Shown in pieces: positions 36,384-58,530 of a DNA stretch of 64,000 bases. A program made the position numbers and the translations under genes. The number at the start of each line of letters is the position of its first letter. The first letter of the stretch is position 1. Below the pieces are notes generated by a model. That model did not search any database. It had not been told where the DNA came from and saw only the letters and a program-made list of their open reading frames with translations. This stretch comes from Xenophilus aerolatus. Lineage in GTDB: Bacteria; Pseudomonadota; Gammaproteobacteria; Burkholderiales; Burkholderiaceae_C. The stretch lies in assembly GCA_029968055.1 (NCBI GenBank), contig JASCNX010000005.1:124001-188000 (forward strand), written 5' to 3'.

Positions 36384-37343
36384 TCAGTATTTCGGCGCGC
36401 TCAACTCGGCGAACAAGTCGCTATAGATTTTATAGCGCGTGGCGCTGATCGGGCCTGCGTTGGCGGCCGATTCGACGTGTGAAATCACGCCGCAGCCCGG
36501 CTCGTGAAGGTGGGTGCAGTTGTAGAACCTGCACTCGCCGGCATGGGCGGCGATGTCGGGCATCAGGTTGGCGAGCTGCATCGGTTCAATGTGGTGCAGG
36601 CCGAATTCCTGGAAGCCCGGCGAGTCGATCAGCGCGGTCTGGCGATCGGCATCGACCCAGTACCAGGTGGTGGTCGTCGTCGTGTGCTTGCCCGAATTCA
36701 GCGCCTGCGAGATTTCGCCCGTCTGCGCGGTGGCACCCGGGACCAGCAGGTTGATCAGCGTGCTCTTGCCGGCGCCCGAAGGGCCGAGCACCAGCGTGGT
36801 CTTGCCGCCGAGTTGCTTCATCAGCGCCTCGCGGTCGACCTCGCCCGAAGCGGTCAACGCCAGCGGCAGCACGCCGTAATGCATGTGCCGGTAGGGCGCC
36901 AGCCGCGCCCATGCGCGCGCGAAGGGCTCGACCAAGTCGCTCTTGTTGAGCGCGATGACCGGGCGGATGCGTTCGGCCTCGGCGGCGATCAGCGCGCGCG
37001 CGAGCTGGTGTTCGGAAAACTCGGGCTCGGCCGCCACGAGGATCAGCACCTGGTCGAGGTTGGCCGCGAAGGACTTCGTGCGGATCTCGTCCTGCCGGTA
37101 GAAGAGGTTGCGCCGCTCGAGCACGCGCTCGATCGTGCCCTCGTCTTCGCTGGCTTGCCACTGCACGCGGTCGCCGACCACGGCCTGGCTCTTCTTGCCG
37201 CGCGGGTGGCAGATGCGGCGTTCGCCGTCGGGCGTCTCGACCACGCAGTGCCGGCCGTGGCTGCCGACGACGAGCCCGTCCTGCAGCGTGGCGTTGCCGG
37301 AGGTGGGGCCGGCGTTGCGCGCCCGCTGCCTGGACGAAGCCAT
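36384..37343 (-). CDS. rsgA: Ribosome small subunit-dependent GTPase RsgA
   Basis: A 319-residue circularly permuted GTPase that checks late 30S maturation. An N-terminal OB domain (GDRVQWQASEDEGTIERVLERRN in part) is followed by the G motifs in permuted order: G4 ALNKSDLV, then G1 GPSGAGKSTLINLL, then G3 DSPGFQEFG. The C-terminal zinc finger is CRFYNCTHLHEPGCGV. The ATG at 37343 lies 7 nt after the phhB stop. Order M48 protease-phhB-rsgA is standard in Burkholderiales. Confidence 0.96.
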   Translation of the reverse strand: MASSRQRARNAGPTSGNATLQDGLVVGSHGRHCVVETPDGERRICHPRGKKSQAVVGDRVQWQASEDEGTIERVLERRNLFYRQDEIRTKSFAANLDQVLILVAAEPEFSEHQLARALIAAEAERIRPVIALNKSDLVEPFARAWARLAPYRHMHYGVLPLALTASGEVDREALMKQLGGKTTLVLGPSGAGKSTLINLLVPGATAQTGEISQALNSGKHTTTTTTWYWVDADRQTALIDSPGFQEFGLHHIEPMQLANLMPDIAAHAGECRFYNCTHLHEPGCGVISHVESAANAGPISATRYKIYSDLFAELSAPKY

Positions 37344-37350
37344 GGAACGG

Positions 37351-37707
37351 TCAGCCGCTGCTGGGCTCGCCCAGCAGGGCGTCGGCCTGCCGCGCACAGT
37401 CGAGGTCGGTGGTCGAGATGCCGCCGACGTCGTGCGTGTTGAATCGCACCACGCAACGGTTGTAGTGCACCGACAGGTCGGGGTGGTGGTCCTGCCGGTG
37501 CGCGATGAGGGCCAGGGCGTTCACGAAGGCGATGGTCTCGAAGTAGTTCGCGAAGGTGTAGGTCTTCTCGATCGCGACATCGGCGCCGTCGCCCGTGAGC
37601 TTCCAGCCCGAAAGGCGCGCAAGGCCGCTCACGATGTCGCTCGGCCCCAGCGCCTTGCGCGTCGGGGCGGACTTCCAGTCGGCGATGGTCAGCATGCTGT
37701 GGCTCAT
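37351..37707 (-). CDS. phhB: Pterin-4a-carbinolamine dehydratase
   Basis: A 118-residue enzyme that dehydrates 4a-hydroxytetrahydropterin, recycling the cofactor of aromatic hydroxylases. The active-site signature EKTYTF...AHRQDHHPDLSVHYNRCVV and the following HDVGGISTTDLDCA are clear. No phenylalanine hydroxylase gene is nearby. The ATG at 37707 is used; a second one four codons later (37695) is possible. Lies between the M48 protease and rsgA with 15 and 7 nt gaps. Confidence 0.93.
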   Translation of the reverse strand: MSHSMLTIADWKSAPTRKALGPSDIVSGLARLSGWKLTGDGADVAIEKTYTFANYFETIAFVNALALIAHRQDHHPDLSVHYNRCVVRFNTHDVGGISTTDLDCARQADALLGEPSSG

Positions 37708-37722
37708 GGTGGTGCTCTCTGG

Positions 37723-38994
37723 TCAGGCGGCCGCGGGGCCGGTGCCCATGCGGGCCAGCCGCTCGGACGCGGGGGGGTGCGAGTAGTAGAACTTGACGAA
37801 CACCGGGTCGGGCGTGAGCGTCGACGCGTTGTCCTGGTACAGCTTGAGCAGGGCAGCCGACAGGTCCTGCCCGCTGGTCTGCGCCACGGCATAGGCATCG
37901 GCCTCGAACTCGTCGCGGCGCGACAACTGGGCCAGCAGCGGCGACACGAACACGGTGAACACCGGCACGGCCAGCACGAAGAGCAGCAGCGCCAATGAGT
38001 CGTTCGGCCCCGTCATGTTCGGCTCCACCCCCAGCCCGGTGTAGAACCAGGTGTGGCGCGAGACCCAGCCGAGCACGGCGAAGGCCGCAAGGCTCAGCGT
38101 GAACATCATCACCATGCGCTTGACGATGTGCCGGTGCTTGAAGTGGCCCAGCTCGTGCGCGAGCACGGCCTCCACCTCGCCGGCGCTGAGCTGCTTGAGC
38201 AGCGTGTCGAAGAACACCACGCGCTTGGACGCACCGAAGCCCGTGAAATACGCATTGGCGTGCGCGCTCCGGCGGCTGCCGTCCATCACGAACAGGCCCT
38301 TGGCCTTGAAGCCGCAGCGCGCCATGAGCGCATTGACGCGCTGCTTGAGCGTCAAATCGTCCAGCGGCTCGAACTTGTTGAACAGCGGCGCGATCCAGGT
38401 CGGCAGGATGAACTGCAGCAACAGCATCCAACCCGTGAGCGCGGCCCAGGCCCAGAGCCACCAGCTGTCGCCGGCCCGGCCCATCAGCCAAAGCACGAGC
38501 GCCGCCAGCGGCAGGCCGATGGCGGCGCCCAGCAGCGTGCCTTTCACGGCATCGGCCAACCAGAGCTTCCAGGTCATCTTGTTGAAGCCGAAGCGCTGTT
38601 CCAGGCGGAAGGTCTGCCACAGCGTGAAGGGCAGGTCGAGCAGGCCGCCGATGAGGCTGAAGGCGACCAGCAGGGCCAGCTGCTGCCCCATGCCGCTGCC
38701 CATCCAGGCCAGCAGGGCCTTGTTGAGCATGTCGAGGCCACCGAGCAAGGTCCAGCCGAGCAGCACCGCTGCGCCCCAAGCGAGCTCGAGCACGCCGAAG
38801 CGGGCCTTGGCGATGGTGTAGTCGGCCGCCTTCTGGTGCGCAGCCAGGCTGATGGTCTGCGCAAAGGCGGCCGGCACGCGGTCGCGGTGCCGCGCCACAT
38901 GGCGGACCTGGCGCGTGGCGAGCCAGAACTTCACGAGCAGGCCCAGCACGAGGGCGGCCGAGAAGGCGAGGGTGAGGGCGAGGGAGGCGGACAT
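37723..38994 (-). CDS. M48 family (Ste24-like) membrane metalloprotease
   Basis: A 423-residue membrane zinc protease. About seven hydrophobic helices surround the catalytic HELGH (in [17 protein letters not shown]), and the third zinc ligand Glu lies in [32 protein letters not shown] is the usual upstream block. Relatives are the CAAX protease Ste24 and HtpX; in bacteria a role in membrane protein quality control is likely. First gene of the M48-phhB-rsgA transcript, divergent from orn over 96 bp. Confidence 0.92.
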
Positions 38995-39090
38995 CGTGGC
39001 GTGGCGGGGGAGGGCGGAAGTGTAGTTCCGGCCCTGGGGCGCGGCGTCGACCGGCCCCGCGCCCCGCAAGGCCTCGTGGACAATGGTCGA

Positions 39091-39693
39091 ATGTCCGAGT
39101 CCATCGCTTCCGAGCCGACCCCCGCCACCCCGATCCCCGAGCTGCGCAAGAGCGACCAGAACCTGGTCTGGCTCGACTGCGAGATGAGCGGGCTGGACCC
39201 GGAGAAGGAGCGGCTCCTCGAGATCGCCGTGGTCGTCACCGGTCCCGACCTCACGCCGCGCATCGACGGGCCGGTGCTGGTGATCCACCAGAGCGACGCG
39301 GTGCTCGACGCCATGGACGCCTGGAACAAGGGCACCCACGGGCGCAGCGGTCTGATCGACAAGGTCAAGGCCTCCACGCTCGACGAGGCAACGGCCGAAC
39401 AGCAGCTGATCGACTTCATCTCACGTTACGTGCCGAAGAACGGCTCGCCCATGTGCGGCAACACCATCGGCCAGGACCGGCGTTTCCTCGTCAAGTACAT
39501 GCCGAAGCTGGAAGCCTTCTTCCACTACCGCAACCTCGACGTCAGCACCCTCAAGGAGTTGGCGAAGCGCTGGAAGCCGGCGGCCTACAGCGCCTTCAAG
39601 AAGCAGCAGGCTCACACGGCGCTGGCCGACGTGCACGAGTCGATCGAGGAGCTGGCGCACTACCGCACGACCTTCTTGCGCTTGCAGGATTAG
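39091..39693 (+). CDS. orn: Oligoribonuclease
   Basis: A 200-residue DEDDh 3'-5' exonuclease that degrades 2-5 nt RNAs, including pGpG from cyclic di-GMP. The acidic residues are in [14 protein letters not shown] (D,E), [11 protein letters not shown] (D) and [14 protein letters not shown] (H and D). The first 20 residues, rich in Pro/Ser/Thr, precede the fold. The ATG at 39091 was chosen; it is in frame with all motifs and close to the expected length. Confidence 0.96.
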
Positions 39694-39709
39694 GTAAAAA
39701 CCCCGATTC

Positions 39710-39760
39710 GTGTCACAATCGTGGGCTTGCCTGAAGGCGCCAACTCGTTTGGCGGCGCAT
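39710..39760 (+). promoter_or_regulatory. Promoter and structured leader of the DEAD-box helicase gene
   Basis: CACAAT (39714-39719) followed by CGTGGGCTTGCC resembles the TATAATCGAGGGCTTTCC of rplS. A leader of about 230 bases follows, starting with a hairpin: CCTGAA pairs with TTCAGG and inside it CGCCAA pairs with TTGGCG. Long structured leaders are known for DEAD-box helicase genes that regulate themselves. Confidence 0.5.
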
Positions 39761-39956
39761 TTCAGGTCTGATCCTGCATCTCCCTTCTCGCACATTGGCT
39801 GGCCGTCGGGCACCCTTCACGGGTGTCGTCTGAGCGGCAGAGGAAAGCCAAGACAGCACTGCCGCTGTCTCATGTCGTTGGATGGTTGATGTTTTTTGAC
39901 CCTCCAACGCGCGCATCCGCCTCGGGTGCGTTGCGTGCGAAAAATTGAGTTTTTCC

Positions 39957-41765
39957 ATGACCGACTCCCTGCAAGACGTGCAGGGCGCTGCTGCGCCCGC
40001 GTCCCTTTCTACCGAAGCTCACGCCGAAGTTCACACCGAATCCACAGTTCCGGCCGTGGCCGCCACGCCCGACGTCGTCGCGGCCGAGGCCCCCGTCCAG
40101 GCCGACGCCCAGGCGTTTGCCGAACTGGGCCTGGCACCCGAGCTCGTCGCCGCCGTGCGCGATCTCGGCTACACCGAGCCCACCGCCGTGCAGCACAAGG
40201 CCATCCCGCTGGCCATGGGCGACGCCAACACCGCCATGGTCGACCTGATGGTCTCGAGCCAGACCGGCAGCGGCAAGACCGCGGCCTTCCTGCTGCCCGT
40301 GCTGCACACGCTGCTGGCCCAGCAGAACGCTGCGCACGCGCAGGCCGAGGCCGACTTCGCCCGCCAGTGCGCTGAAGCCGCCGAGCGCGGCGAGCCCGCG
40401 CCCAAGCGCCCGCGCCGCCAGAACCCGACCAACCCGCGCCAGTTCAAGCCCGCCACCCCTGGTGCGCTGGTGCTGTGCCCCACGCGCGAACTCGCGCAGC
40501 AGGTGGCGCACGACGCCATCGGCCTCGTGCAGCACTGCCGCGGCCTGCGCATCGCCAACGTGGTCGGCGGCATGCCCTACCAGTTGCAGATCGCGCGCCT
40601 GCAGAACGCCAACCTGGTCGTCGCAACGCCGGGCCGTCTGCTCGACCTGCAGCGCTCGATGCAGATCAAGCTCGACCAGGTGCAATTCCTGGTCGTGGAC
40701 GAGGCCGACCGCATGCTCGACCTCGGCTTTGCCGACGACCTGGCCGAGATCAACCAGCTGACGATCCAGCGCAAGCAGACCATGATGTTCAGCGCCACCT
40801 TCGCGCCGCGCATCCAGCAACTGGCCGCCCGCGTGATGCGCGAGCCGCGCAAGTTGCAGATCGATTCGCCGCAAGAGAAGCACGCCAACATCAAGCAGAT
40901 CCTGCATTGGGCCGACCACTTCGACCACAAGCGCGCGCTGCTCGACCACTGGCTTCGCGATTCGTCGATCCAGCAGGCCATCGTCTTTGCCAGCACGCAG
41001 ATCGAGTGCGACGGGCTGGCCAACGACCTGCAGCAAGCCGGCTTCTCGGCCGTGGCGCTGCATGGCGCGCTGAGCCAGGGTCTGCGCAACCGCCGCCTGA
41101 TGGCGCTGCGTAACGGCCAGGTGCAGATCCTCGTGGCCACCGATGTCGCCGCCCGCGGCATCGACGTGCCCAGCATTAGCCACGTCTTCAACTTCGGCCT
41201 GCCGATGAAGGCCGAGGACTACACCCACCGCATTGGCCGCACCGGCCGTGCGGGTCGCGACGGCATCGCCGTGACCTTTGCCGAGTTCCGCGACCAGCGT
41301 CGCGTGTTCGACATCGAGGCCTTCACCCGCCAGCAGTTCAATGCCGAGATGATCCCCGGCATGGAACCCACGCGCCGTGCCCCGACGGCCCAGCCGCCTC
41401 GCGGCTTCGGTGGCGGCAAGGGCCGTGGTCGCCCGAGCGAAGGCGCCGGCCCGCGTGGCCCGCGCCGTGACCACGGCTTCCACGGCAACCGTGCGCCGGG
41501 CTGGGGCGAAGGCGCCGCGCCGTCGCACCCGCGCAGCCATGCGCGCGACGGGTTCCAGGGCAAGTCGGCGCACGGCTCCGATGGAGCAGGCGCCAAGCGC
41601 TATCAGAAAGATGGCGCGGCCTTCGCCGGTCAGGGCAAGGCTGCCGGTGCCACGCGCACTTGGTCGCCCGAGCGCGACACGCGCGGCTTCGGCGGCAAGG
41701 GTGGTGGTGGCAAGCCGGCGGGGCGCCCTCAGGGTGGCCGCGTGTTCGTGCCGCGGGATCGCTGA
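39957..41765 (+). CDS. DEAD-box ATP-dependent RNA helicase (RhlE-like)
   Basis: A 602-residue RNA helicase. In order: Q motif GYTEPTAVQHKAIPLA, motif I SSQTGSGKTAAF, Ia PTRELAQQ, Ib TPGRLLDL, II VDEADRML, III SAT, V TDVAARGID and VI HRIGRTGRAGRDG. An unusual insert of about 50 charged residues (ARQCAEAAERGEPAPKRPRRQ) sits between motifs I and Ia. The C-terminal 170 residues are Gly/Arg/Lys-rich and disordered, probably for RNA binding. Such enzymes act in RNA decay and cold adaptation. A TTG at 39945 would add four codons. Confidence 0.93.
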   Translation: MTDSLQDVQGAAAPASLSTEAHAEVHTESTVPAVAATPDVVAAEAPVQADAQAFAELGLAPELVAAVRDLGYTEPTAVQHKAIPLAMGDANTAMVDLMVSSQTGSGKTAAFLLPVLHTLLAQQNAAHAQAEADFARQCAEAAERGEPAPKRPRRQNPTNPRQFKPATPGALVLCPTRELAQQVAHDAIGLVQHCRGLRIANVVGGMPYQLQIARLQNANLVVATPGRLLDLQRSMQIKLDQVQFLVVDEADRMLDLGFADDLAEINQLTIQRKQTMMFSATFAPRIQQLAARVMREPRKLQIDSPQEKHANIKQILHWADHFDHKRALLDHWLRDSSIQQAIVFASTQIECDGLANDLQQAGFSAVALHGALSQGLRNRRLMALRNGQVQILVATDVAARGIDVPSISHVFNFGLPMKAEDYTHRIGRTGRAGRDGIAVTFAEFRDQRRVFDIEAFTRQQFNAEMIPGMEPTRRAPTAQPPRGFGGGKGRGRPSEGAGPRGPRRDHGFHGNRAPGWGEGAAPSHPRSHARDGFQGKSAHGSDGAGAKRYQKDGAAFAGQGKAAGATRTWSPERDTRGFGGKGGGGKPAGRPQGGRVFVPRDR

Positions 41766-41794
41766 GACGCCCAGCCAGCAGACACTGCACAGAG

Positions 41795-41822
41795 AGCGGC
41801 CCTTCGGGGCCGCTTTTTTTTT
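41795..41822 (+). terminator. Rho-independent terminator after the DEAD-box helicase gene
   Basis: AGCGGCCC (41795-41802), TTCG tetraloop, GGGCCGCT (41807-41814) and nine Ts: a textbook terminator. Confidence 0.93.
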
Positions 41823-42163
41823 GGCACCACGGATGCGCGCCGGCTTGTCCGACGATTGTTCGCGGCCCAGGCATTTCGGCTCATGACGGTCCACGGGGGT
41901 GGAAAAAAGTCACGGCCTCATCTACTTTCGATTGGGGATGGGCAGTTTCCGATTAGCCAGCAAACTCCTTGACCTTCACCGCGAGGTGAAAATGGTCTGC
42001 AACAAGAATGGTCAGGGAGTTCCATATGTCATCTTTCGGTGACGCGATGTCTCGGCGCGAGTTCCGCCCGGCGACACGCGACAGCAGCGCGTCCATACGC
42101 ACCTGTACAGGTGCACTGAGCAACCGGTCGCGTTCGTGACCGGCCCCTGGGATCGCTGCGGGG
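41823..42163. other. Gene-poor border of the T6SS remnant
   Basis: Between the helicase terminator and the vgrG frame lies a stretch of visibly lower GC than its surroundings. No gene start or core T6SS gene is recognisable. A minus-strand frame of 72 codons (41953-42171) is open, whose C-terminal part would read WNSLTILVADHFHLAVKV; it matches no family I know. The border probably marks one end of a rearrangement. Confidence 0.5.
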
Positions 42164-44833
42164 TTGCACACGCAACCCGTCCGCGGCGCGTGCCCCTTCT
42201 GCGCGGGTCAACCGACCCGGTGCAGTCGTTGGCACCCGCGGGCGTCCGTGGGCGCACTGCAGGACAAGCGGCGGATCGCCCGGATCCATGCAGACGTCGC
42301 GTCCGCGGACAGCCACTACGCCATCGACGCCGAATCGCTGTCGCTCGGCAAGCTCGTGCTGGCCAGTGCCGCAGGCATCTTTGCCGACGGCACGCCTTTC
42401 GACGCGCCGGGCCAGACCCCGCCGCCCGCGCCGCTCAACCTCGACCTCGATGCCTTCATCGGACGCGACATCACCTGCTTCATCGAACTCGATGGCGCCG
42501 GCGAATTCATCCCCGGTGCCGTGGACGCCAGCACCGACCGCGTCGGCGCCGGCGTGCGCGAGATCAGCGCCCTCATCACCGACGCGCAGCTGTGGGGCGA
42601 GGAAGGCCGGCACGTCCAATACAAGCTCACCCTGCGCCCCTGGTTGCACCTGGCCACACTCAGCACCGACTGCAAGATCTTCCAGAACAGGAGCGTCGTC
42701 GACATCCTCGACGAACTGCTCGCCGACTACCCCTTCCCGGTCGACAAGCGCCTGATCGACACCTACCCGGCGCGCGACTACCAGACCCAGTACAACGAAA
42801 CCGACTTCCAGTTCTTCGAGCGCCTGTGCCAGGAATGGGGCATCAACTACTTCTTCGAGCATTCCGATGGCAAGCACCGGCTGGTGCTCATCGACAACAT
42901 GGGCGCGCACCGCGCCAATCCCAGCGAGGCCTACGCCCAGGTCGAGTACCACCCGCCCCACTGGAAGGTCGACGCCGAGTACATCCACGCCTTCGCCCCG
43001 CACAACCAGCTCACCAGCGGCCGCTATGCGACGCGTGACTACGACTACACCAGGCCGAAGGCCGATCTGACCGTCAGCCGCAACGACCCCCGCCCCACCG
43101 GCCAGGCCGAGGGCGAGGTCTACCAGTGGCACCACGGCGGCGCAGGCAGTCAGTACGCGCAGCCCGGCGCCGGCGCGGCACAGGGCAACGACCCCCACGA
43201 GGAAGGCCGGCACCTGGCCCGTCTGCGCATGCAGCAGCTGCGCACCCACGGAGCGCGTGCACAAGCCAGTGGCCATCTGCGCGGCATGGTCCCCGGCTGT
43301 ACCTTCAGGTTGCAGAAGCACCCTCGGAAAAAGGCCAACGGCGAATACCTCGTTCTGGACACGCGCTTCCTCATCGAGGAGGTCGGGCGGGACAGCCAGA
43401 ACGTCGACGCCGTCGCCGGGCGCCGCCAGCAGTGGCGCGCGCAGGTGGACTTCACCGCTCATCCGGTTGCCGAGCCCCTGCGCCCCGCGTTCACTCGGCA
43501 AAAGCCCTACACCCGGGGCCCCGAAGTGGCCGTCGTCGTCGGCCCTGAAGGCGAGAACATCTGGACCGACGCCCTGGGTCGCATCAAGGTGCAGTTTCCG
43601 TGGGACCGCATCGGCCGCCGCGACCAGAACAGCACCTGCTGGCTGCGTGTCAGCAGCCCCTGGGCAGGGAACCAACTCGGCGGCATGCATCTTCCCCGTA
43701 TCGGCCAGGAAGTCGTCGTCGACTTCATCTCGGGCGACCCCGACCTGCCGCTGTGCCTCGGGCGCGTCTATAACCAGTTGAACCTCCCGCCCTGGGCGCT
43801 GCCCAACCAGCAGGCCCTGTCGGGCTTTCGCAGCCGGGAATTGACCGAAGGAGGCGGCGGCAACGGTGCGGGCGGGCGAGGCAATCACCTGGTGCTCGAT
43901 GACACCGACAAGAAGATCCAGGCGCAGCTCAAGTCCGACCACCAGCACAGCCAGTTGAGCCTGGGCAGCATCGCCCGCATCGAAGACAACGCCGGCCGCA
44001 AGGACCCCCGCGGACAGGGCTTCGAACTGCGCACCGACGGCCATGGCGCGCTGCGCGCCGCCGACGGCCTGCTCATCACCACCGAAGCGCGCCACGGCGC
44101 ACGGCAGCACATGCTGGACAGCGAAGAAACCGCGTCGCGTCTGGCTCAAGGGCAGGACCAGCACGACAGCCTCGCGAGCGCAGCCCGCCAGGCCGAGGCC
44201 CAGGAAGCGGGCGACCAGCACGATGTCGCCGCCGCCCTGAAGGCGCAGAACGACGACATCAAGGGCAAGGGCGGTGATCGGGCCGCGAACGAATTCCCCG
44301 AACTGCTCGCGCCCCACCTGGTGCTCTCCAGTCCGGCCGGCATCGAATCCACCACGCCGAAGTCCACCCACGTGGCCAGCGGCGATCACATTGCCCTGAC
44401 CAGCGGCGCCCACACCAGCGTCTCTGCCGGCAAGAGCTTCCTGGTGAGCGTCAAGCAGGCGATCCGGCTGTTTGTCTACAAGGGCGTCATCAGGATCGTC
44501 GCGGCGTTGGACAACATCTACATCGAGGCCCAGAAGCAGGGCATCCATTTGAGGGCCAAGGAGGAGATCACCCTTCGGGCCAAGAGGATCGTCCTCGAAG
44601 CCGACGAGTTCGTGAAGGTCAACGGCGGCACCAGCTACGGCAACTGGAACAGCTCGGGCATCGTCAACGGCACCAACGGCACCTGGCTGGAGCACGCGGC
44701 CGTTCATTCCTTCGCAGGCCCCGACAGCCTGCCCTTGCCGGCCATACGGTTTCCGGAGCCGAAGGACAGCACGGTCTGCAAGGAGTGCCTGCTCAAGGCC
44801 ATGGCAGCGGGCTCCGCATTTGCCAAGGCATGA
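42164..44833 (+). CDS. vgrG: VgrG-type T6SS spike protein with TssK-like N-terminal segment (chimera)
   Basis: An open frame of 889 codons. Residues from about 94 on are VgrG: FIGRDITCFIELDG, LRPWLHLATLSTDCKIFQN, YNETDFQFFERLCQEWGI (gp27-like), RVSSPWAGNQLGGMHLPRIGQEV (gp5 OB fold) and a DUF2345 tail with beta-helix, without an added toxin domain. The usual first 60-70 VgrG residues are missing. In their place residues 50-92 read HYAIDAESLSLGKLVL..GIFADGTPFDAP..PPPAPLNL, the N-terminal pattern of the baseplate protein TssK. There is no ATG before residue 249; the frame starts with TTG (42164) or GTG (42248), without a ribosome binding site. Expression as an intact spike is doubtful. Confidence 0.7.
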   Translation: MHTQPVRGACPFCAGQPTRCSRWHPRASVGALQDKRRIARIHADVASADSHYAIDAESLSLGKLVLASAAGIFADGTPFDAPGQTPPPAPLNLDLDAFIGRDITCFIELDGAGEFIPGAVDASTDRVGAGVREISALITDAQLWGEEGRHVQYKLTLRPWLHLATLSTDCKIFQNRSVVDILDELLADYPFPVDKRLIDTYPARDYQTQYNETDFQFFERLCQEWGINYFFEHSDGKHRLVLIDNMGAHRANPSEAYAQVEYHPPHWKVDAEYIHAFAPHNQLTSGRYATRDYDYTRPKADLTVSRNDPRPTGQAEGEVYQWHHGGAGSQYAQPGAGAAQGNDPHEEGRHLARLRMQQLRTHGARAQASGHLRGMVPGCTFRLQKHPRKKANGEYLVLDTRFLIEEVGRDSQNVDAVAGRRQQWRAQVDFTAHPVAEPLRPAFTRQKPYTRGPEVAVVVGPEGENIWTDALGRIKVQFPWDRIGRRDQNSTCWLRVSSPWAGNQLGGMHLPRIGQEVVVDFISGDPDLPLCLGRVYNQLNLPPWALPNQQALSGFRSRELTEGGGGNGAGGRGNHLVLDDTDKKIQAQLKSDHQHSQLSLGSIARIEDNAGRKDPRGQGFELRTDGHGALRAADGLLITTEARHGARQHMLDSEETASRLAQGQDQHDSLASAARQAEAQEAGDQHDVAAALKAQNDDIKGKGGDRAANEFPELLAPHLVLSSPAGIESTTPKSTHVASGDHIALTSGAHTSVSAGKSFLVSVKQAIRLFVYKGVIRIVAALDNIYIEAQKQGIHLRAKEEITLRAKRIVLEADEFVKVNGGTSYGNWNSSGIVNGTNGTWLEHAAVHSFAGPDSLPLPAIRFPEPKDSTVCKECLLKAMAAGSAFAKA

Positions 44834-45780
44834 GCATGTCCAACTATTTCGCCGTCGATCCCATGAGCCCCGGCACTGTGGCCGCTTTTCTTGGCGTATG
44901 GCGTTCACTCTCTCAGGCGCATGCCGGGCTTCGACTCTATGCGATGGTTGATGCGGCCTTCGACGAGCAGCAATTTGCCAGGCACCTCGATCGGCATGAA
45001 GGCGCCGCAGTGTCGCTCTATGCAGGCACTGAACTGGCGGAGCTTGACAGCATCGCCCCTTGGCTTCTGGAACTGAATGCTGCAGGTTCTCCGGCCCTTA
45101 CCCAGCAGATACGGCAACTCGCCGAACTGCGCGGCACACGGCCGATGCTCTCCTTCTTTGCCACCCGGTGTGATCTTGGGTCACTGCAGCGCCACTTCCA
45201 ATCCTTCTTGTTCACGGCGATCGACGGCGATCTGCGTTGGATGCTGCGACTGGCCGATACCCGCATCCTCGAATCACTGAGCCGTGTACTCAGTCCGCTA
45301 CAAATCGACGCTCTATTTCCGGGTGACATCCATGTCTGGTTCCCCCTGCGTCGGGATGGACAGGCAGCGGTCCGCTCCATAGACCCCACACGTTCCGATT
45401 CCAAGGGCGGCGGTCCCATGGCTTTCGATGCGAAGCAGTTTGAAGCCATGGTCGAGGCAGGCGAGGCCGACCTCGTCGTCACGCACTTGACGCTCTCCAA
45501 TCCCCGGTGCTTCGACGGTGCTCGTCCCGCTGAGATCCATGGTTTCATCGACGAGCAGGTGCGGCGGGCCCATGCGCATGGCATCGAGGACGCGCGCAGC
45601 CTCGAGACCTATTGCGTCGCGGCGCTGGCGCTGGGCGCGCGCTTCGATGAGCAGCCCGAATTCGCCTTTGCCATCACGCAGGCGGTCCCCGTGCCCGGCT
45701 CTCTCGTCGAACGCTTCGCCGACATACCTGATCAGACCTGGCGTCAAGTCAAGGCATCGCTTGGCAGCGGCGATTCCTGA
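44830..45780 (+). CDS. DUF4123 T6SS effector adaptor
   Basis: A 316-residue soluble protein of the DUF4123 (VgrG chaperone/adaptor) family, which loads effectors onto the VgrG tip. The start ATG overlaps the vgrG stop (ATGA), so the two are coupled. Family features are LRLYAMVDAAFDEQQFARHL near residue 40, YAGTELAELDSIAPWLLEL, and LQRHFQSFLFTAIDGDLRWMLRLADTRIL-type core (each shorter). A helical C-terminal part follows. No effector gene of normal size remains behind it, only a 55-codon frame, so its cargo may have been lost. Confidence 0.85.
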   Translation: MSMSNYFAVDPMSPGTVAAFLGVWRSLSQAHAGLRLYAMVDAAFDEQQFARHLDRHEGAAVSLYAGTELAELDSIAPWLLELNAAGSPALTQQIRQLAELRGTRPMLSFFATRCDLGSLQRHFQSFLFTAIDGDLRWMLRLADTRILESLSRVLSPLQIDALFPGDIHVWFPLRRDGQAAVRSIDPTRSDSKGGGPMAFDAKQFEAMVEAGEADLVVTHLTLSNPRCFDGARPAEIHGFIDEQVRRAHAHGIEDARSLETYCVAALALGARFDEQPEFAFAITQAVPVPGSLVERFADIPDQTWRQVKASLGSGDS

Positions 45781-45928
45781 GCAGCGCCTCACCGATGCGG
45801 AAAGCATCGAACTGCGCGGGATGATCCCGGAGGCATACAAAAGCGGCGCAATGTGGGCCACGCGCCAGAGAACGCGGCGCGAGACCGGCGGTCACATCCA
45901 CTACCGCAAGGTGTTCGATGCGAGTTGA
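45761..45928 (+). CDS. Small unassigned ORF behind the DUF4123 gene
   Basis: A 55-codon frame that overlaps the last 20 bases of the DUF4123 gene, starting at a TTG (45761); a later ATG lies at 45821. The product would read RLTDAESIELRGMIPEAYKSG and end GGHIHYRKVFDAS, a plausible globular sequence without known family. It sits where an effector or immunity gene would be expected, and may be the end of a deleted one. Confidence 0.35.
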   Translation: MAAAIPEQRLTDAESIELRGMIPEAYKSGAMWATRQRTRRETGGHIHYRKVFDAS

Positions 45929-45988
45929 TATCACGCCGGGCGACAGCCTGCATAGCCAGCGCAGCAGGTCTTTCCGTCGTAACTTCCT

Positions 45989-47422
45989 ATGGATGTCCAT
46001 GCCATGAGTGCGGTTCCGCCCAACAATTTCCAGACCGTCGATCACAGCGGGCTCGCGCCGGATCCGTCCTCGCCCTCTACGGCGACGGGCGCGGCGACGT
46101 CCTCGTCGGTCACGTTGGATGCCGATCCTCCTGTCCGGCCCCGCCTGGACGCGGTGAAGTCCGCGAAGAACCCCTTGCTGGAGGCGGCGCAGCCCTTGCT
46201 GCGCGCGCTGGCAGACATGTCGCCCACCCTGGACTCGGAAGGCGTCGAGCCCCTGCGCCGCCTGCTCGAGCGCGAGGTGCTCACCTTCCAGGCGCTGTGC
46301 AGCGACGCCGCAATTCGCCACGAGCACGTGGTGGCGGCCAGCTATGCGCTTTGCACCGCACTGGACGAAGCGGCCAACAGCACGGAATGGGGCGGCACCA
46401 AGGCAGAGGGCCAGGCGGGCGTCTGGGCTTCGCAGCAGTTGGCGGCGCAGTTCCATGGCGACATCAAGGGCGGCGACAAGTTCTTCCTGCTGGTCGGCCG
46501 GCTGGCCGCCAGCCCGCAGGAGCACATCGACCTGCTGGAGCTGATGTACTACGTGCTGGGCCTGGGCTTCCGGGGGCGTTACAGCACGGCGACCAACGGG
46601 CACCAACAACTCGAAGCCATTCGCCGGCGGCTGCTGACGCTGCTGAACTCGGCCCGCGGCGACGTGCCGCGCGAACTCTCGCCGCATTGGCGCGGCGAGG
46701 GCGCGGGCAAGTTCCGGCTGCTGCGCAGCGTTCCGGTATGGGTGACGGCGTCGCTGCTGTCGCTGGCGGCGCTGGGCCTGTTCGCCTGGTACAAGTTCCA
46801 GCTCGGGCAGATGAGCACCGACGTGGAGCAGCGCATCGCGGCGATCGGCCGCATGCACCCGCCGCCGGTGCCGGTGGCGACGGTCAAGCCGCTGCGGCTC
46901 AAGGAGCTGCTGGCGGCCGAGATCGCGCGCGGCACGGTGAGCGTGGAGGAAGACGAGCGCCGCAGCGCCGTGACCTTCAAGGGCGACGACATGTTCGTGC
47001 CGGGCCAGGCGAGGCTGAGCCAGAAGATCATCCCCGTGCTGGGCAAGGTGGCCGACGAAATCAACCAGGTCACGGGCACGGTGCAGGTCACCGGCCACTC
47101 GGACAACCAGCCCATCCGCACGCGCGAGTTCCCCGACAACCAGGTGCTGAGCGAGAAGCGCGCGGCAGCCGTGTCCACGGTGCTGCAGGGCCGCGGCGTG
47201 GTGGCCTCGCGCATCCAGACCGAGGGCAAGGGCGACACGGTGCCGGTGGCGCAGAACGCCACGCCGGCCGGCCGCGCCCGCAACCGCCGGGTCGACATCG
47301 TCGTGACGCAGGGCGGTGCCACCACGTACGTGGCCACGATCGGTGCGCCCGCAGGGGGTGCCGTGGTGGCTCCGGCCGCGCCAGCGGCAACGCCGGTGCA
47401 GCCGCCGCAGCCGCGGCGCTGA
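45989..47422 (+). CDS. tssL: TssL, T6SS membrane protein (DotU + OmpA domains)
   Basis: A 477-residue inner-membrane protein, apparently complete. Residues 60-235 are the cytoplasmic DotU domain (NPLLEAAQPLLRALADMS, YALCTALDEAANSTEWG, LELMYYVLGLGFRGRY). A single membrane helix follows at about 250-270 (VWVTASLLSLAALGLFAWY), then a periplasmic OmpA-like peptidoglycan-binding domain (VQVTGHSDNQPIRTREFPDNQVLSEKRA, RNRRVDIVV) and a Pro/Ala tail. It normally anchors the T6SS membrane complex with TssM and TssJ. An ATG five codons on (46004) is an alternative start. Confidence 0.92.
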   Translation: MDVHAMSAVPPNNFQTVDHSGLAPDPSSPSTATGAATSSSVTLDADPPVRPRLDAVKSAKNPLLEAAQPLLRALADMSPTLDSEGVEPLRRLLEREVLTFQALCSDAAIRHEHVVAASYALCTALDEAANSTEWGGTKAEGQAGVWASQQLAAQFHGDIKGGDKFFLLVGRLAASPQEHIDLLELMYYVLGLGFRGRYSTATNGHQQLEAIRRRLLTLLNSARGDVPRELSPHWRGEGAGKFRLLRSVPVWVTASLLSLAALGLFAWYKFQLGQMSTDVEQRIAAIGRMHPPPVPVATVKPLRLKELLAAEIARGTVSVEEDERRSAVTFKGDDMFVPGQARLSQKIIPVLGKVADEINQVTGTVQVTGHSDNQPIRTREFPDNQVLSEKRAAAVSTVLQGRGVVASRIQTEGKGDTVPVAQNATPAGRARNRRVDIVVTQGGATTYVATIGAPAGGAVVAPAAPAATPVQPPQPRR

Positions 47423-47441
47423 GCGCGGTCAGGGAGTTTTC

Positions 47442-47921
47442 ATGCAATACCTCAAACAGTTCCTGGGTTTTCTCTTCTCTCGCCAGATGCTGGCGTTCTT
47501 GGCCGTGGTGCTGCTGGCGGTGGTGATCTGGTTCGTCGGGCCGCTGCTGGCGGTGGACGGCCTGCGGCCGCTGGCCTCGGCGGGCGTGCGCATCAGCTTC
47601 ATCGTGCTGCTGCTGGCGCTGGGCATCCTCTGGTTGGTGTCGGGGCCGGTCAGCCTCATCGGCGTGGCGGCCCTGTGCCTGCTGGTGTGGTATGCCGGGC
47701 CGCTGCTGGCCTTGGGCAGCGCACAGCCGCTGGCGCCGGTGTGGGTGCGCACGGTGGTCATCACGGTCGTCCTGCTGGCCTGCGCGCTCTACTGGCTCCA
47801 CCGCTTGTGGCGGGCGCTTCGCAACAACGACGACCTGCTCGCCAGATTCCTCAACTTCGGCCAGGACGCGCGCCAAGAGGACGTGGCCAAGGGCTTTCGC
47901 TGCCCGGGCAGGGCGAGTTGA
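47442..47921 (+). pseudogene. tssM: tssM remnant: N-terminal membrane part fused to a short tail
   Basis: A 159-codon frame; full TssM has about 1200 residues. It starts MQYLKQFLGFLFSRQMLAFLAVV with a good ribosome binding site (AGGGAG, 47431-47436), shows four hydrophobic stretches and DDLLARFLNFGQDARQEDVAK, then ends at once with GFRCPGRAS. The tail resembles the extreme C-terminus of TssM proteins, so an internal deletion of about 1000 codons is the simplest reading. The NTPase and periplasmic domains are absent. It could still make a small membrane protein. Confidence 0.8.
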
Positions 47922-47925
47922 CGCC

Positions 47926-48081
47926 ATGCTGCGCACGCTGATCCCTTGCGGCCCCGTCACGCCGCCGGCCATCTGGGGCAAGTTGCCTGGCCACGCCCAC
48001 TGCTTGCGCAGCGGCATGCGGCATGGCGTGGGCGAGGGCTGGCGCCCCTGGCCGGCGCTGCTGCGGAGCAGTCAATCGTGA
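47926..48081 (+). pseudogene. tagF: tagF remnant
   Basis: A 51-codon frame whose first 40 residues (MLRTLIPCGPVTPPAIWGKL, PGHAHCLRSGMRHGVGEGW) match the N-terminus of the T6SS-associated TagF/ImpM (DUF2094) protein, normally well over 200 residues. The rest is missing, yet the stop overlaps the GTG start of tagK as GTGA, as intact neighbours would. An internal deletion that kept both gene ends is inferred. Confidence 0.65.
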
Positions 48082-48923
48082 AGCTCCCGAACGATCGTTC
48101 CAGCGGCGCGCAGCCTGCGGGCGCGCCGGCCTTGCAACTGCGCGTGATGCGCGCGGCGGCGAGAGCGGGATCGGGCGCGGGCGTGGAGCCCGTGCTTCAC
48201 GACGCGCCCCGGCCGCACGCCGTCGATGCCCTGGACGTCTTCGACTTGCGCGACCTGGCGTCGCTGCCACAGCACGCATCTGCGACCGCGTGGGCGATCG
48301 CTGAAAGCAGGAGCGATCCTTTCGGCGTGCTCGACATCGCGGGTGCGCAGGCCCGGCCCTCCGGGGCCACCCTTTCGGAAATGGTGGGTGAAACGCCTTC
48401 GCCGCTCGCCCGCTTAGCGGGGCCACCCGTGCCTGCGTCCGGCGGAATGCAGTCGGGACCCGCCGCGAAGGCCGTCCCGGCGGAGCGGCATCCCTCCGCG
48501 TCCACGGCCGTGCTGGATGAACTGCATGAGGAGTTCGTGCGCGTGGTGCGCGACCCTTCGCAGCTCGCGGGGCGCTCCGACTGGGGAGGGGCTGTCGCCC
48601 CTGAAGCTGCGTCCTCGACGGCCGTTCACGCGCTGGGCCAGGCCGCCGAACTCTCCCCGCTGCTGCTCGACATGCTGCAACCGCCGGGAAGCATCGACCA
48701 GGTCATCCAGCAATTCGATCCGCTGAGCCGCTCGACCCTCCTCGATGTGGACGGGCCCGAGGACGTGCTGCGCCTCTTTGCGCCGGAACTGGCGCACGAC
48801 ATGCGCGTGGCGGTGCCCAGCCTCACGAGGCGCGAGCACCACGAACTCTCGCCCGACAGTCATGTCCGCATGGGCGGGGAGAGGCCGGGCCAGAACGCCG
48901 CCGCGCCGGGAGAGGCCGCATGA
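48078..48923 (+). CDS. tagK: TagK-like T6SS-associated protein
   Basis: A 281-residue protein of the TAGK type. The N-terminal 150 residues are Ala/Pro-rich and variable. The C-terminal domain carries the family blocks LDELHEEFVRVVRDPSQLAG, LLLDMLQPPGSIDQVIQQFD, DVLRLFAPEL and VPSLTRREHHELSPDSHVR. Function in the T6SS is unknown. Start GTG (48078) overlaps the tagF remnant stop; its own stop overlaps an ATG (ATGA) of a micro-ORF. Confidence 0.8.
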   Translation: MKLPNDRSSGAQPAGAPALQLRVMRAAARAGSGAGVEPVLHDAPRPHAVDALDVFDLRDLASLPQHASATAWAIAESRSDPFGVLDIAGAQARPSGATLSEMVGETPSPLARLAGPPVPASGGMQSGPAAKAVPAERHPSASTAVLDELHEEFVRVVRDPSQLAGRSDWGGAVAPEAASSTAVHALGQAAELSPLLLDMLQPPGSIDQVIQQFDPLSRSTLLDVDGPEDVLRLFAPELAHDMRVAVPSLTRREHHELSPDSHVRMGGERPGQNAAAPGEAA

Positions 48924-49054
48924 GATTCCCGATCCCCGGCGCCGCCGGCCCAGGATGTTCGAAACGAGACGAGACCGGCTCGCCGTCGCGCGCGGGACCG
49001 GCAATTTCAACATGGGCTCGCACCGTGGTGCGATGCACGGAGGTCCTTCGATGA
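48920..49054 (+). CDS. Micro-ORF coupled to tagK
   Basis: A 44-codon frame. Its ATG overlaps the tagK stop (ATGA at 48920-48923) and its own stop overlaps the ATG of the next ORF (ATGA at 49051-49054). The product (MRFPIPGAAGPGCSKRDE...) has no recognisable domain and no helix of note. The coupling at both ends suggests the shell of a former larger gene. Confidence 0.35.
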   Translation: MRFPIPGAAGPGCSKRDETGSPSRAGPAISTWARTVVRCTEVLR

Positions 49055-49245
49055 GTGCCCAAACCCTGATCCTGAAGCATGACGAATGGCGAAAGGGCCT
49101 GGGCGGCGCCCCGGCCGGCGTGGCGGGCGAGAGCGATGGCAATGCCTACATGGGCCTGGACCTGAACCTGATCACGTTCTCGGCCAGCATGGTCTTCGAG
49201 CCCGAGCAGTACGTCGGCTCGCGCTACCGCGCCAGCGCCCATTGA
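49051..49245 (+). CDS. Small conserved-looking protein of unknown function in the T6SS locus
   Basis: A 64-codon frame with a very good ribosome binding site (GGAGG at 49039-49043, 7 nt before ATG). It reads MSAQTLILKHDEWRKGLGG, then a short Gly/Ala linker, then AYMGLDLNLITFSASMVFEP and a basic end. The amphipathic second half looks like a folded segment. I cannot name a family. It may be a real small protein or a further internally shortened T6SS gene. Confidence 0.5.
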   Translation: MSAQTLILKHDEWRKGLGGAPAGVAGESDGNAYMGLDLNLITFSASMVFEPEQYVGSRYRASAH

Positions 49246-49280
49246 CCTTCCTTCTTGCCAAACGCCTTTTCGCCCCCGCC

Positions 49281-50375
49281 ATGACCCGTGTCGCCACCCC
49301 CGACCAGCCCGCCACTGCCGCACGCGCGCCCTTCGCCGCCGCCGAGTGGCTGCAGCCGCTGAGTGCGCAGCAGCCCTGCGGCGCCAGCCTCGAATACGAC
49401 CCCGAATACGCCGTGCTGCTGTCGCGCATGCTGCCGCGTGGCGATGCGCAGTACGGCAACTTCGTCGGCACGCCCGAGGCGCCCAACTGGGCCGAGATCG
49501 AACGCGACTGCCGCCGTCTGCTCCTGCGCACCAGGGACATCAATCTCGTCATCTGGCTGGCCCGCGCGCGCACCCGGCTCGGCCAGGCGGGCGGGCTGGC
49601 GCAGGTGCTCGGCATGCTTGCGGCATTGCTGCAGGCCTGGCCCGAGGCGGTGCATCCGCAACTGGTGGTCGAAGGCGAGCTCGACCCGGCAGTGCGCGCC
49701 AACGCGCTGGCGGCGCTGGCCGATCCCGACGGCCTGCTGGGTGACGTGCGCGATGTCGTCGTCGCGCCGCATACCGCGTTGCGCCTGGCCGTGCGCGATG
49801 TCGAACGTGCCTTTGCCAGCCCCCGCCCCGCCGAGGCGCCGAGTCCCGAATCCGTTGCCCAGCAGCTGGCCGCCCTGCGCGAGGCGGCCGGGGACGACGC
49901 CCAGGCCCCCGTGCACCAGCTCGCGCAGGCGGCCCGCGAAGCGCACGCCATCGAGCGCTGGTGCCGCGAGCACCTGAACGACGACGCTCCGACCTTGCAG
50001 CCGCTGCTGCGTGTGCTCGACCTCTTCCTGCCGCCGCCTGCGCCGGCCCCTGCAACCGGCGTGGCGGACTGGGCCGGAACCGCACGGCTTTCGGCCACCG
50101 CAGCCGTGGCCCATCCTCTTCTGCCATTCGCCGGCGCGCCCTTGCCGGGCAGCAGCGCGCCTGCTTCGCGCGACGACGTCCTGCTCACCCTCCGTGCCGC
50201 CCGCCAATGGTTCGAAGCGCATGAGCCGAGCAGTCCCGTCGCCGTGCTGCTCAAGCAGGCCGAGCGCATGGTCGGCAAGCGCTTTTCGCAGGTGGCCGAC
50301 GCCATCCCGCTCGACCTGCTGCACAAATGGGAGTCGGCCGACGACGACGGAAGCCGCACCGGAGGCCATTCGTGA
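49281..50375 (+). CDS. tssA: TssA, T6SS baseplate/tail assembly protein
   Basis: A 364-residue soluble protein, apparently intact. The ImpA_N domain is clear: PCGASLEYDPEYAVLLSRML, APNWAEIERDCRRLLLRTRDINLVIWLARART-type core and LVVEGELDPAVRANALAAL. The C-terminal part has LLTLRAARQWFEAHEPSSPVAVLLKQAER and a final dimer/ring-forming segment. TssA caps the growing sheath, but no sheath genes are in the window. Its stop overlaps the GTG of the next gene (GTGA). Confidence 0.9.
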   Translation: MTRVATPDQPATAARAPFAAAEWLQPLSAQQPCGASLEYDPEYAVLLSRMLPRGDAQYGNFVGTPEAPNWAEIERDCRRLLLRTRDINLVIWLARARTRLGQAGGLAQVLGMLAALLQAWPEAVHPQLVVEGELDPAVRANALAALADPDGLLGDVRDVVVAPHTALRLAVRDVERAFASPRPAEAPSPESVAQQLAALREAAGDDAQAPVHQLAQAAREAHAIERWCREHLNDDAPTLQPLLRVLDLFLPPPAPAPATGVADWAGTARLSATAAVAHPLLPFAGAPLPGSSAPASRDDVLLTLRAARQWFEAHEPSSPVAVLLKQAERMVGKRFSQVADAIPLDLLHKWESADDDGSRTGGHS

Positions 50376-51154
50376 ACCCGCCGCTTGCGCTTGGGGTCGC
50401 AGCCTTCGCCCTCGGCCTGCTGGGTGCGGCGCTCGGCGCGTGGTGGCTCTCGAAGCGGCTGAGCGCCCAATGGGCGTTGGAGATGCCGCGGCTGCTGCAG
50501 GCGCAACTCGAAGCCCATGCGCGTGCGCAGGTCCCGCCGCTGCGCGACGCCTCGCCTGCGGCAGAGGCGCCGGTGTTCGACACCGCGCTGCTGGCCGCAC
50601 AACTGCGATCGCAGCTCACGGCCGCATTCGATGCCCAGCGCGAGGCGTTGCAACGGGCCTGGCAGCAGGCCGACGACACCTTGCACCAGGCCCTGCAGCG
50701 CCTGCCGCAAGGGGTGCAGCAGGCCATTCAGGTCGAGTTGGAGTTCCAGGCCCAGCAACAGGCCGGGCGCGATGCAGCACGCGCGGTGGAACAGCAGCGC
50801 TGGCAGGCCGAGCAGGACGAGCGCCGTGCAGCCGAACTGCGCGTGCTGCTCCAGGCCCCGGGCGCGCAGCCACCAGCGGGGCCGCGAACCGCCGCCCCGC
50901 CGCCCGAGCCCGCACACCCCCCAGTGCCCGCGCCCGCCGCGCCGGCGCGCCACGCTGCAGCCGTGTCGGCCCGCCCGCCCGAACTCGAACTGACGCCCTT
51001 GCCCCGCCCTCAACCGAGCCGCGGGCCCGAACCGGCCGCACCCGAACTCAGCGACGAGGAACTCGACGCGCTGCCGCCAGACTTGCCCGCGCCCGACAAG
51101 GCCCGCAGACGCATCCTGCCGCCGCCCAAGAGGCCCCCGTTTCGCAGTCTTTAG
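50372..51154 (+). CDS. Membrane-anchored coiled-coil, Pro-rich protein of unknown function
   Basis: A 260-residue protein translationally coupled to tssA (GTG at 50372 overlaps the tssA TGA). One N-terminal membrane helix (LALGVAAFALGLLGAALGAW) is followed by about 130 residues of Ala/Gln/Glu/Arg heptads likely to form a coiled coil (LQRAWQQADDTLHQALQRL), and then about 85 residues rich in Pro and Ala with an acidic patch and a basic end (PPPKRPPFRSL). No family recognised. Position suggests a T6SS accessory role. Confidence 0.75.
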   Translation: MNPPLALGVAAFALGLLGAALGAWWLSKRLSAQWALEMPRLLQAQLEAHARAQVPPLRDASPAAEAPVFDTALLAAQLRSQLTAAFDAQREALQRAWQQADDTLHQALQRLPQGVQQAIQVELEFQAQQQAGRDAARAVEQQRWQAEQDERRAAELRVLLQAPGAQPPAGPRTAAPPPEPAHPPVPAPAAPARHAAAVSARPPELELTPLPRPQPSRGPEPAAPELSDEELDALPPDLPAPDKARRRILPPPKRPPFRSL

Positions 51155-51289
51155 ATCGTGTGCGCAGATCGCGACGTGCGCCCAGACCGGCCGATGTCAG
51201 CCAATGCCCTGCGTGCGGATGCGAATTCGGCCGGTAGGTCATCGCATGCGGCGCAGCCATGCTTTACAGCCTGATCCAAGGAGCTTGCC

Positions 51290-51475
51290 GTGAACCTGCC
51301 GTCGTCTGCCTCTGAAGACATCATCGTCCCGCGTTCGGTCGTGGACGTCACCCGCGCCGAGGAAGTCGCCTACTGGATGGCGACGCTCGGCGTATCCGAA
51401 ATGGACTTGCGCCGCGCGGTCGCCGCGTCCGGCGAGGTTCCCGGGGACGTGCGCGACTATCTCGGCGTCAAGTAA
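51290..51475 (+). CDS. DUF3606-like small protein
   Basis: A 61-residue protein with the short helical pattern of DUF3606: residues 19-36 read DVTRAEEVAYWMATLGVS, followed by EMDLRRAVAASG and a C-terminal YLGVK. Function unknown. GTG start at 51290 with AAGGAG (51278-51283) 6 nt upstream. It stands alone between the T6SS remnant and tRNA-Lys, and need not belong to either. Confidence 0.78.
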   Translation: MNLPSSASEDIIVPRSVVDVTRAEEVAYWMATLGVSEMDLRRAVAASGEVPGDVRDYLGVK

Positions 51476-51573
51476 GGCCTGCGATCGGCCTGACGGCCAG
51501 TGCCCTGCAGGGTAGCGGTCGTCGGCGCATTCGGCGCGGCACCTGAGTGTTGCCTTCGGCCCCAGGCCGCGAG

Positions 51574-51614
51574 CCCAAAAAGAAAATGCCCCGCATGAGG
51601 ACATGCGGGGCATT
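51574..51614 (-). terminator. Terminator of tRNA-Lys
   Basis: AATGCCCCGCAT (51585-51596) and ATGCGGGGCATT (51603-51614) form a perfect 12-bp stem. On the minus strand it is followed by TTTTCTTTTT, the expected run. Confidence 0.88.
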
Positions 51615-51621
51615 CGTGTTT

Positions 51622-51697
51622 TGGTGGGCCCTGAGTGACTCGAACACTCGACCTACGGATTAAGAGTCCGCTGCTCTACCAACTGAGCTAAGAGCCC
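51622..51697 (-). tRNA. tRNA-Lys (CTT)
   Basis: Minus-strand sequence starts GGGCTCTTAGCTCAGTTGG, with anticodon stem GCGGA/TCCGT around loop CTCTTAA (anticodon CTT, reading AAG), T loop TTCGAGT and an encoded CCA end. A TATACT box (51748-51753, minus strand) about 50 bases upstream is a candidate -10. Confidence 0.95.
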
Positions 51698-51880
51698 TTG
51701 CTTGTTTACACCGCGTTGTGCGCTGTGCATTTTTAGGCAAGACCGCGAGTATAGCGCAATTTTCTGGACCCGTGCACGGGCGTCGGCGCGCCTTGGTGTG
51801 CGCGGGTAGGATGGCGCCATCGCGCGTTGCGCCGCTCACTGCGTCTTCCCATGATCTCGCCTGTTTCCCCCTCCGCACCC

Positions 51881-52567: not shown

Positions 52568-52574
52568 AGGCGCA

Positions 52575-52609
52575 AAGAAAAAGGCCCCGGTGCGATGCAC
52601 AGGGGCCTT
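52575..52609 (-). terminator. Terminator of tRNA-Ala
   Basis: AAGGCCCC (52581-52588) and GGGGCCTT (52602-52609) pair. On the minus strand the stem is followed by TTTCTTTG, so it ends the tRNA-Ala transcript; it may serve the SDR gene too. Confidence 0.75.
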
Positions 52610-52621
52610 CTGGAGAATCGT

Positions 52622-52697
<76 letters not shown>

Positions 52698-52740
52698 AAC
52701 GCAGGGCGCGATTCTATAACCGCCGGCCTGCCCGCGCCAC

Positions 52741-53718: not shown

Positions 53719-53811
53719 GACCCAAGCTCTCCTTGATGAAGGTCGTTGACGGCGAACGATGGAGCGCTTGGCCTGGCCGGTTCCGCGGCCCGCCCGGCAG
53801 TGCGGTGGCCA

Positions 53812-57713: not shown

Positions 57714-57728
57714 CGCGGCGCGGCGGCC

Positions 57729-58526: not shown

Positions 58527-58530
58527 GGCG

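Follow-up and report, generated by a model that had tools for sequence, protein, structure and literature searches.

A ClpV–TssK–VgrG chimeric reading frame as the probable scar of deletions in a type VI secretion operon of Xenophilus aerolatus

The window analyzed here, a stretch of 64,000 nucleotides on contig C5 of a 5.1 Mb Xenophilus aerolatus genome assembled in 11 contigs, contains an open reading frame of 889 codons (42164–44833, plus strand, TTG start according to the ORF reading) that joins parts of three type VI secretion system (T6SS) genes. The 5' leader of clpV, a piece of ClpV, codons 46–89 of TssK, and VgrG from codon 61 to its end follow each other in a single reading frame. 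We regard this chimera as a composite pseudogene, left as the scar of several deletions in a spare, decaying T6SS operon, and give this reading a probability of about 0.92.

Make-up and borders of the chimeric frame

The TssK-like stretch that the initial annotation had claimed for residues 50–92 was confirmed by Pfam and NCBIfam profiles, which matched residues 50–93/95. Searched alone (42164–42445), the region matched positions 28–71 of PF05936 with an E-value of 1.9e-10 and positions 42–86 of TIGR03353 with 5.4e-9, and at such values the similarity is evidently not due to chance. The sole solved TssK that we found, 5y0e, aligned via residues 51–88 (E 0.00063). At the DNA level, the piece comprises 42310 to 42435/42437 and is 82% identical over 126 bp to tssK of Pseudacidovorax intermedius DSM 21352 (G003, grouped in the same genus), and the protein identity to P. 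intermedius TssK is 86% over 44 residues. It is a fragment, covering about 45 of the 429 positions of TIGR03353 and scoring 33–38 bits against a cut-off of 100 for full-length TssK.

VgrG homology sets in at about 42438–42441. The VgrG profile matches open at residues 92–93, where PF05954 is entered at position 20 and TIGR01646 at position 29, and TIGR03361 matches from position 54, so that the complete VgrG N-terminus is absent. The hub, OB, and Vgr profiles all scored above their cut-offs (PF05954 284 bits, PF04717 50.5, PF13296 116.6), as did TIGR03361 (431.5 versus a cut-off of 186). The DNA of the vgrG part and beyond is 73% identical to P. intermedius DSM 21352 over 2,669 bp, and the vgrG part matches the gene of that strain with 67% over residues 61–856. 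The chimera thus resembles VgrG/TssI tip proteins (TIGR03361, PF05954; for example, 4mtk and 9mlp) in possessing the hub, OB, T6SS_Vgr, and DUF2345 regions, but it differs from them in lacking the first approximately 60 residues and the native start. Profiles and the DNA comparison with the intact P. intermedius cluster agree that TssK and VgrG are joined in frame, and residues 40–95 matched ClpV and TssK and did not align to VgrG N-termini.

While this join is real, the initial annotation, which described a fusion of two genes, missed a third piece as well as the operon-wide decay. Residues 29–48, approximately, correspond in the chimera's frame to a region near the C-terminal end of ClpV that is 92% identical over 53 bp to clpV of X. 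aerolatus E41 (G005). In E41, a further 20 codons and the stop of clpV follow, which are gone from the chimera. Residues 1–28 are read from the old 5' leader of clpV. With only some 20 ClpV codons remaining, the frame had no match to any AAA profile.

The loss of the VgrG N-terminus together with its ATG, as well as the restriction to TTG and GTG starts, had also been proposed from the sequence, and both hold. There is no in-frame ATG between the upstream stop (42137) and 42700, and the in-frame starts ahead of the VgrG part are TTG 42164, GTG 42248, and GTG 42356. By eye, no clear Shine-Dalgarno sequence was seen in the 22 bases upstream of these three codons. The small ORF in the leader, located 5' of the former clpV and shared by the window, E41, and the related genome G007, has an ATG preceded by the Shine-Dalgarno-like AGGGAG, and its product begins with MSSFGD(A/V)M.

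The chimera appears to be unique to its own genome, which was the only one with a single match over both the TssK and VgrG pieces, both among 15 genomes of the genus and, among the matches listed, in a sample of 399 family genomes drawn from a larger group. Several other matches overran the join by some 5 to 20 residues, as ordinary local alignments of vgrG or tssK do. In the plasmid collection, 91 records matched partially and none covered 80% of the query. One Burkholderia multivorans plasmid match began in the tssK piece and extended over 2.7 kb against 1.4 kb of query; this would fit an intact tssK–vgrG pair.

The relic operon and its counterparts in related genomes

The remains of the T6SS operon span 41824–51194 (Table 1). 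Besides the chimera, six fragments or shrunken genes lie 3' of it (effector region, tssM, tagF, tagK-like, pentapeptide gene, and tssG). Pfam failed to detect most of the short remnants (tssM, tagF, tagK-like, and pentapeptide/tssG), owing to their small size or extensive change, and they were recognized by comparison with P. intermedius DSM 21352, whose tssM has 1423 codons (TssM by TIGR03348). The tagF and tagK-like genes are shortened with their native ends kept, as judged from the frames, and the stop of the tagF stub overlaps the next start in the same way as in P. intermedius. No match to tssB, tssC, tssF, or tssJ was found from position 30000 on in the window with the P. intermedius ORFs as queries (E 1e-6). 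With core genes of sheath, baseplate, and membrane complex missing or reduced, the locus does not constitute a functional T6SS cluster. The downstream fragments are collinear with P. intermedius DSM 21352 except for the pentapeptide gene, which follows tssG there and precedes the tssG end in the relic. This difference in order counts against the deletion reading and is only partly explained: in P. intermedius NS331, tssF and tssG are about 12 kb apart, so that insertions do occur at that place.

The P. intermedius gene names were verified by profiles for the ClpB-type AAA+ protein, VipA/TssB, VipB/TssC, TssJ, TssM, TagF, the TagK-domain protein, ImpE, TssF, and TssG. An assignment of the gene following tagF as fha was rejected, as the profile search revealed a TagK domain. 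The gene at 50372–51154 is presumably tagX-like.

Table 1. Features of the relic T6SS locus and its surroundings (window positions unless another locus is given)
Feature	Position	Strand	Basis or remark
DEAD-box helicase gene flanking the relic on the left	39945–41765	+	Pfam DEAD, Helicase_C
Old 5' leader preceding clpV in the T6SS operon	41824–42244	+	Matches G007 up to a position upstream of where clpV starts
Small leader ORF, 37 codons	42026–42139	+	Also in E41 and G007; stop 42137 in the chimera's frame
clpV/tssH piece, about 20 codons near the C-terminal end	42249–42308	+	92% to E41 over 53 bp; last approximately 20 codons and stop lost
tssK codons 46–89	42310–42437	+	PF05936, TIGR03353
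vgrG, codon 61 to stop	42438–44833	+	PF05954, PF04717, PF13296, PF10106
DUF4123 gene (adaptor-like), approximately full length	44785–45780	+	PF13503; G003 residues 1–331 of 334
Effector-region gene, final 46 codons	45788–45925	+	tblastn, G003 residues 663–708 of 708, 46% identity
tssL (DotU and OmpA domain), approximately full length	45989–47422	+	PF09850, PF00691; G003 residues 1–439 of 508
tssM, shrunk in frame to 159 codons (first approximately 150 and native C-terminal tail)	47442–47921	+	G003 comparison
tagF stub, 51 codons	47926–48081	+	G003 residues 5–62; G003 gene TagF by PF09867
tagK-like gene with internal in-frame loss	48078–48923	+	tblastn to G003 ORF residues 303–536; G003 TagK domain NF033419
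Pentapeptide-repeat gene, initial 45 codons	49051–49186	+	G003 residues 1–59, the last of them covering the tssG end; Pfam of the full-length G003 gene
tssG C-terminal end, fused in frame to the pentapeptide piece	49187–49245	+	G003 tssG by PF06996
tssA, full length	49281–50375	+	PF06812
Presumed tagX-like gene	50372–51154	+	Part of tagX by G003 comparison; no profile match
tRNA-Lys(ctt), just beyond the right end of the relic	51622–51697	-	ARAGORN
VgrG/Tla3-like fusion in E41 (same in L166 of G006)	L165 10708–11970 (minus strand)		PF20995, E 8e-5, just under cut-off

Deletion had been suggested as an origin of the join, and the intact relatives support this. Of the 25 entries from fetched loci with a tssK match of more than 300 residues, 10 have a vgrG in the same orientation no more than 3 kb downstream. 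These represent eight distinct places, three of the entries being one P. intermedius locus, and the gap is at most 299 bp in seven of the eight. The remaining 15 entries lack such a vgrG; nine of them carry a more distant type of tssK (37–41% identity), and at least one runs off the end of its fetched stretch. As most loci were fetched for encoding relatives of VgrG or TssK, these numbers are no census. Given this tssK–vgrG succession in intact relatives, one deletion of about 1.35 kb suffices for the join (1,354 bp, P. intermedius DSM 21352 positions 12576 to 13931).

The ancestral operon would have had the order clpV-tssB-tssC-...-tssJ-tssK-vgrG-DUF4123-effector region-tssL-tssM-tagF-tagK-like-...-tssG-tssA-tagX and would have been located between the helicase gene and the tRNA-Lys gene. 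A first deletion, of about 2.7 kb relative to G007 (5434 to 8110), would have removed the clpV start and most of clpV; a second, estimated at about 3.7 kb (P. intermedius clpV end to 12451), would have taken out everything from the clpV end up to and including tssK codon 45; and the third, at the tssK/vgrG join, tssK codon 90 through vgrG codon 60. The pieces of clpV, tssK, and vgrG would thereby have been left in one frame with the native start gone, and other deletions in the same operon would have emptied tssM, tagF, the tagK-like gene, tssG, and the effector region. The order of these events is one that we infer.

Three other sources for the parts were considered and rejected. The intact tssK on contig C2 of the same genome is 49% identical to the piece and is no candidate donor, and the second vgrG of P. 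intermedius DSM 21352 matches the junction more poorly than the counterpart used. A VgrG N-terminal fragment on contig C7 (L008) is not the missing N-terminus, as it overlaps the retained part with 82% DNA identity; it is a paralogue that is itself truncated. This second broken vgrG (L008 868–2127, minus strand; L164) encodes VgrG for its first approximately 211 residues, followed by unrelated in-frame sequence, and, by eye, its downstream frame shifts later.

The same site is worn in different ways in sister genomes. The window is 90% identical to E41 over 36951–42197 and 92% over 49187–64000. The named genus members E41 and P. intermedius DSM 21352 gave no support to the Variovorax affiliation presumed in the initial annotation. 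The E41 locus retains clpV, tssB, an in-frame fusion of tssC (residues 1–67) and tssG, which scores as TssG in NCBIfam, and tssA. Genome G006 equals E41 over the 6,700 bp compared, and the two were counted as one case. G007 retains clpV, tssB, and a tssC with an out-of-frame internal loss, the end of which continues in frame as tssA, beginning with codon 187. In G009 and G010, the site is empty; 46 and 59 bp, respectively, separate the helicase end from the sequence that corresponds to window position 51195. Across the 15 genomes of the genus search, we thus observed a relic at the site in four and an empty site in two, with no match in seven and a short match alone in the other two. In G007, about 50 kb of extra DNA (C55, 47922–98283) separates the relic from the tRNA-Lys match; the ORF at its start resembles, by eye, a phage-type integrase, and the insert is probably an integrative element at tRNA-Lys. 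In E41 and G006, a VgrG N-terminal part of approximately 290 residues continues in frame into the C-terminal portion of a Tla3-like lipase adaptor.

These comparisons also bear on the reading that tssK and vgrG were fused by an assembly artefact, which we consider extremely unlikely. Searches of the remaining assembly did not recover the missing parts: neither the rest of the relic tssK nor a second tssC was detected in its contigs. Moreover, the locus has several independent joins, and related species have their own deletions at the same site.

Selection, fate of the product, and the frame of the joins

Contig C2 carries matches for a T6SS core (tssK, tssL, tssM, tssF, tssG, clpV, vgrG, tssC, tssB, tssA, and tssJ), and the relic copy would therefore be redundant. 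It was in principle conceivable that the chimera is a working spike, loaded by this C2 system, in which the ClpV/TssK segment stands in for the first 60 residues of VgrG. In favor of this, VgrG can be read without interruption up to its stop, the following DUF4123 gene is approximately full length, and no relaxation of selection was seen. Nevertheless, we find it very improbable, because a credible start codon is lacking, the neighboring effector-region gene is down to 46 codons, the chimera is confined to 1 of 399 family genomes among the matches listed, and the C2 VgrG shares just 26% identity with the P. intermedius representative of this vgrG lineage. Where the initial annotation left the choice between a spike with a foreign N-terminus and a dead product, we infer the latter: the start is gone, the machinery encoded around it is mostly absent or reduced, and the product is presumably not made or does not assemble.

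The TssK–VgrG frame runs for 840 codons without a stop. This is weak evidence for function because the opposite strand likewise has a frame without stops across these 840 codons. This antisense frame (42029–44908, minus strand) has 959 codons and is probably an effect of the high G+C coding sequence.

Eight relative-rate tests were performed. Compared with its P. intermedius relative, the VgrG part had changes at positions 1+2 versus position 3 of 119:108 as against 126:139 (Fisher p 0.32), and two other outgroups gave p 0.86 and 0.93; the five tests against L082, L146, and L087 all showed no difference (p 0.32 to 0.93). L149 was dropped as an outgroup, as its three tests were significant through its own excess of position 1+2 changes. 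This vgrG relative (E41, contig C11) has an open frame and is perhaps a frameshifted or decaying vgrG copy.

Relative to E41, dN/dS was 0.256 for tssA and 0.427 for tagX, compared to 0.102, 0.17, and 0.054 for the flanking helicase, IMPDH-family, and uvrD genes, respectively. The absence of a rate excess in VgrG and the tssA value below 1 disfavor long-standing neutrality and argue for recent loss or some constraint. The stop-free frame, the unrelaxed VgrG part, and the tssA ratio speak against a pseudogene, and fit a recent loss or some retained use. A recent pseudogene is the most likely state of the chimera. An AlphaFold prediction made with 25 VgrG homologues had a mean pLDDT of 41.4 and was too poor to use.

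Eight of the nine assessable joins are in frame: clpV/tssK, tssK/vgrG, tssM, tagF, tagK-like, and pentapeptide/tssG in the window, tssC/tssG in E41, and tssC/tssA in G007; the internal tssC loss of G007 is out of frame. As the tssK/vgrG join was noticed for being in frame, we also give the count excluding it, which is seven of eight. The VgrG–Tla3-like fusion of E41 and G006 and the truncated VgrG on C7 were left out, as they were met via VgrG searches. At a neutral expectation of 1/3, the binomial p is 0.00097 for 8/9 and 0.0026 for 7/8.

These values could reflect selection favoring in-frame deletions during erosion, which would add to the deletions described above and not exclude them; for example, ribosomes would keep moving, so that the full-length tssL, tssA, and DUF4123 genes stay expressed. 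The neutral expectation itself is higher than 1/3, however, given the compositional differences among codon positions: for these genes in P. intermedius, the in-phase share of exact matches is 0.434 with 3 bp, 0.594 with 6 bp, and 0.876 with 10 bp. A rate of 0.434 yields p values of 0.007 (8/9) and 0.014 (7/8), and longer microhomology, at 0.594, raises them to 0.066 and 0.10. The shared sequence at resolvable joins is about 0–3 bp as judged from relatives, which stand in for the true ancestral sequences, and tssM is ambiguous. The tagF and tagK-like joins, moreover, rest on weaker homology; without these two and the tssK/vgrG join, the count is 5/6, with p from 0.018 to 0.059. Codon-phase bias and small numbers may explain the in-frame excess, which is a hint and not a result, and we consider such selection doubtful. 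The same doubt applies to the wider idea that several species wear down this operon in parallel by mostly frame-keeping deletions that turn genes into in-frame stubs and fusions, with selection preserving translation of the operon. A limited literature search on in-frame deletion, microhomology, pseudogene, and polarity found no paper.

Relation to known T6SS remnants and significance

Remnant T6SS loci have been described before. In the parts of the sources that we consulted, Escherichia coli ST410-B/H24 has a remnant T6SS with an rhsG–tssM junction after a 21.0 kb deletion (PMC10711316), and Bordetella bronchiseptica has T6SS-deficient and T6SS-degenerate strains (PMC4618060). As in E. coli, the X. 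aerolatus locus was lost by internal deletion with gene remnants joined. The E. coli case, as far as those parts describe it, involves one large deletion per lineage and two joined remnants, whereas the relic has several deletions in one locus and three genes in one open frame, and its sister species decay differently. The similarity to B. bronchiseptica lies in locus loss or pseudogenes that vary among close strains; unlike the relic, gene fusions are not described in the consulted parts of that source (PMC4618060). In a limited literature search, we found no description of a ClpV–TssK–VgrG chimera, and a search for T6SS decay in the Comamonadaceae returned no paper.

Dying T6SS loci can thus yield chimeric ORFs that are convincing and probably meaningless; profile-based annotation would call the present one VgrG. 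The sister species offer one and the same operon for comparison in various stages of decay. Should the in-frame excess hold in a larger set, it would be informative on selection in dying operons.
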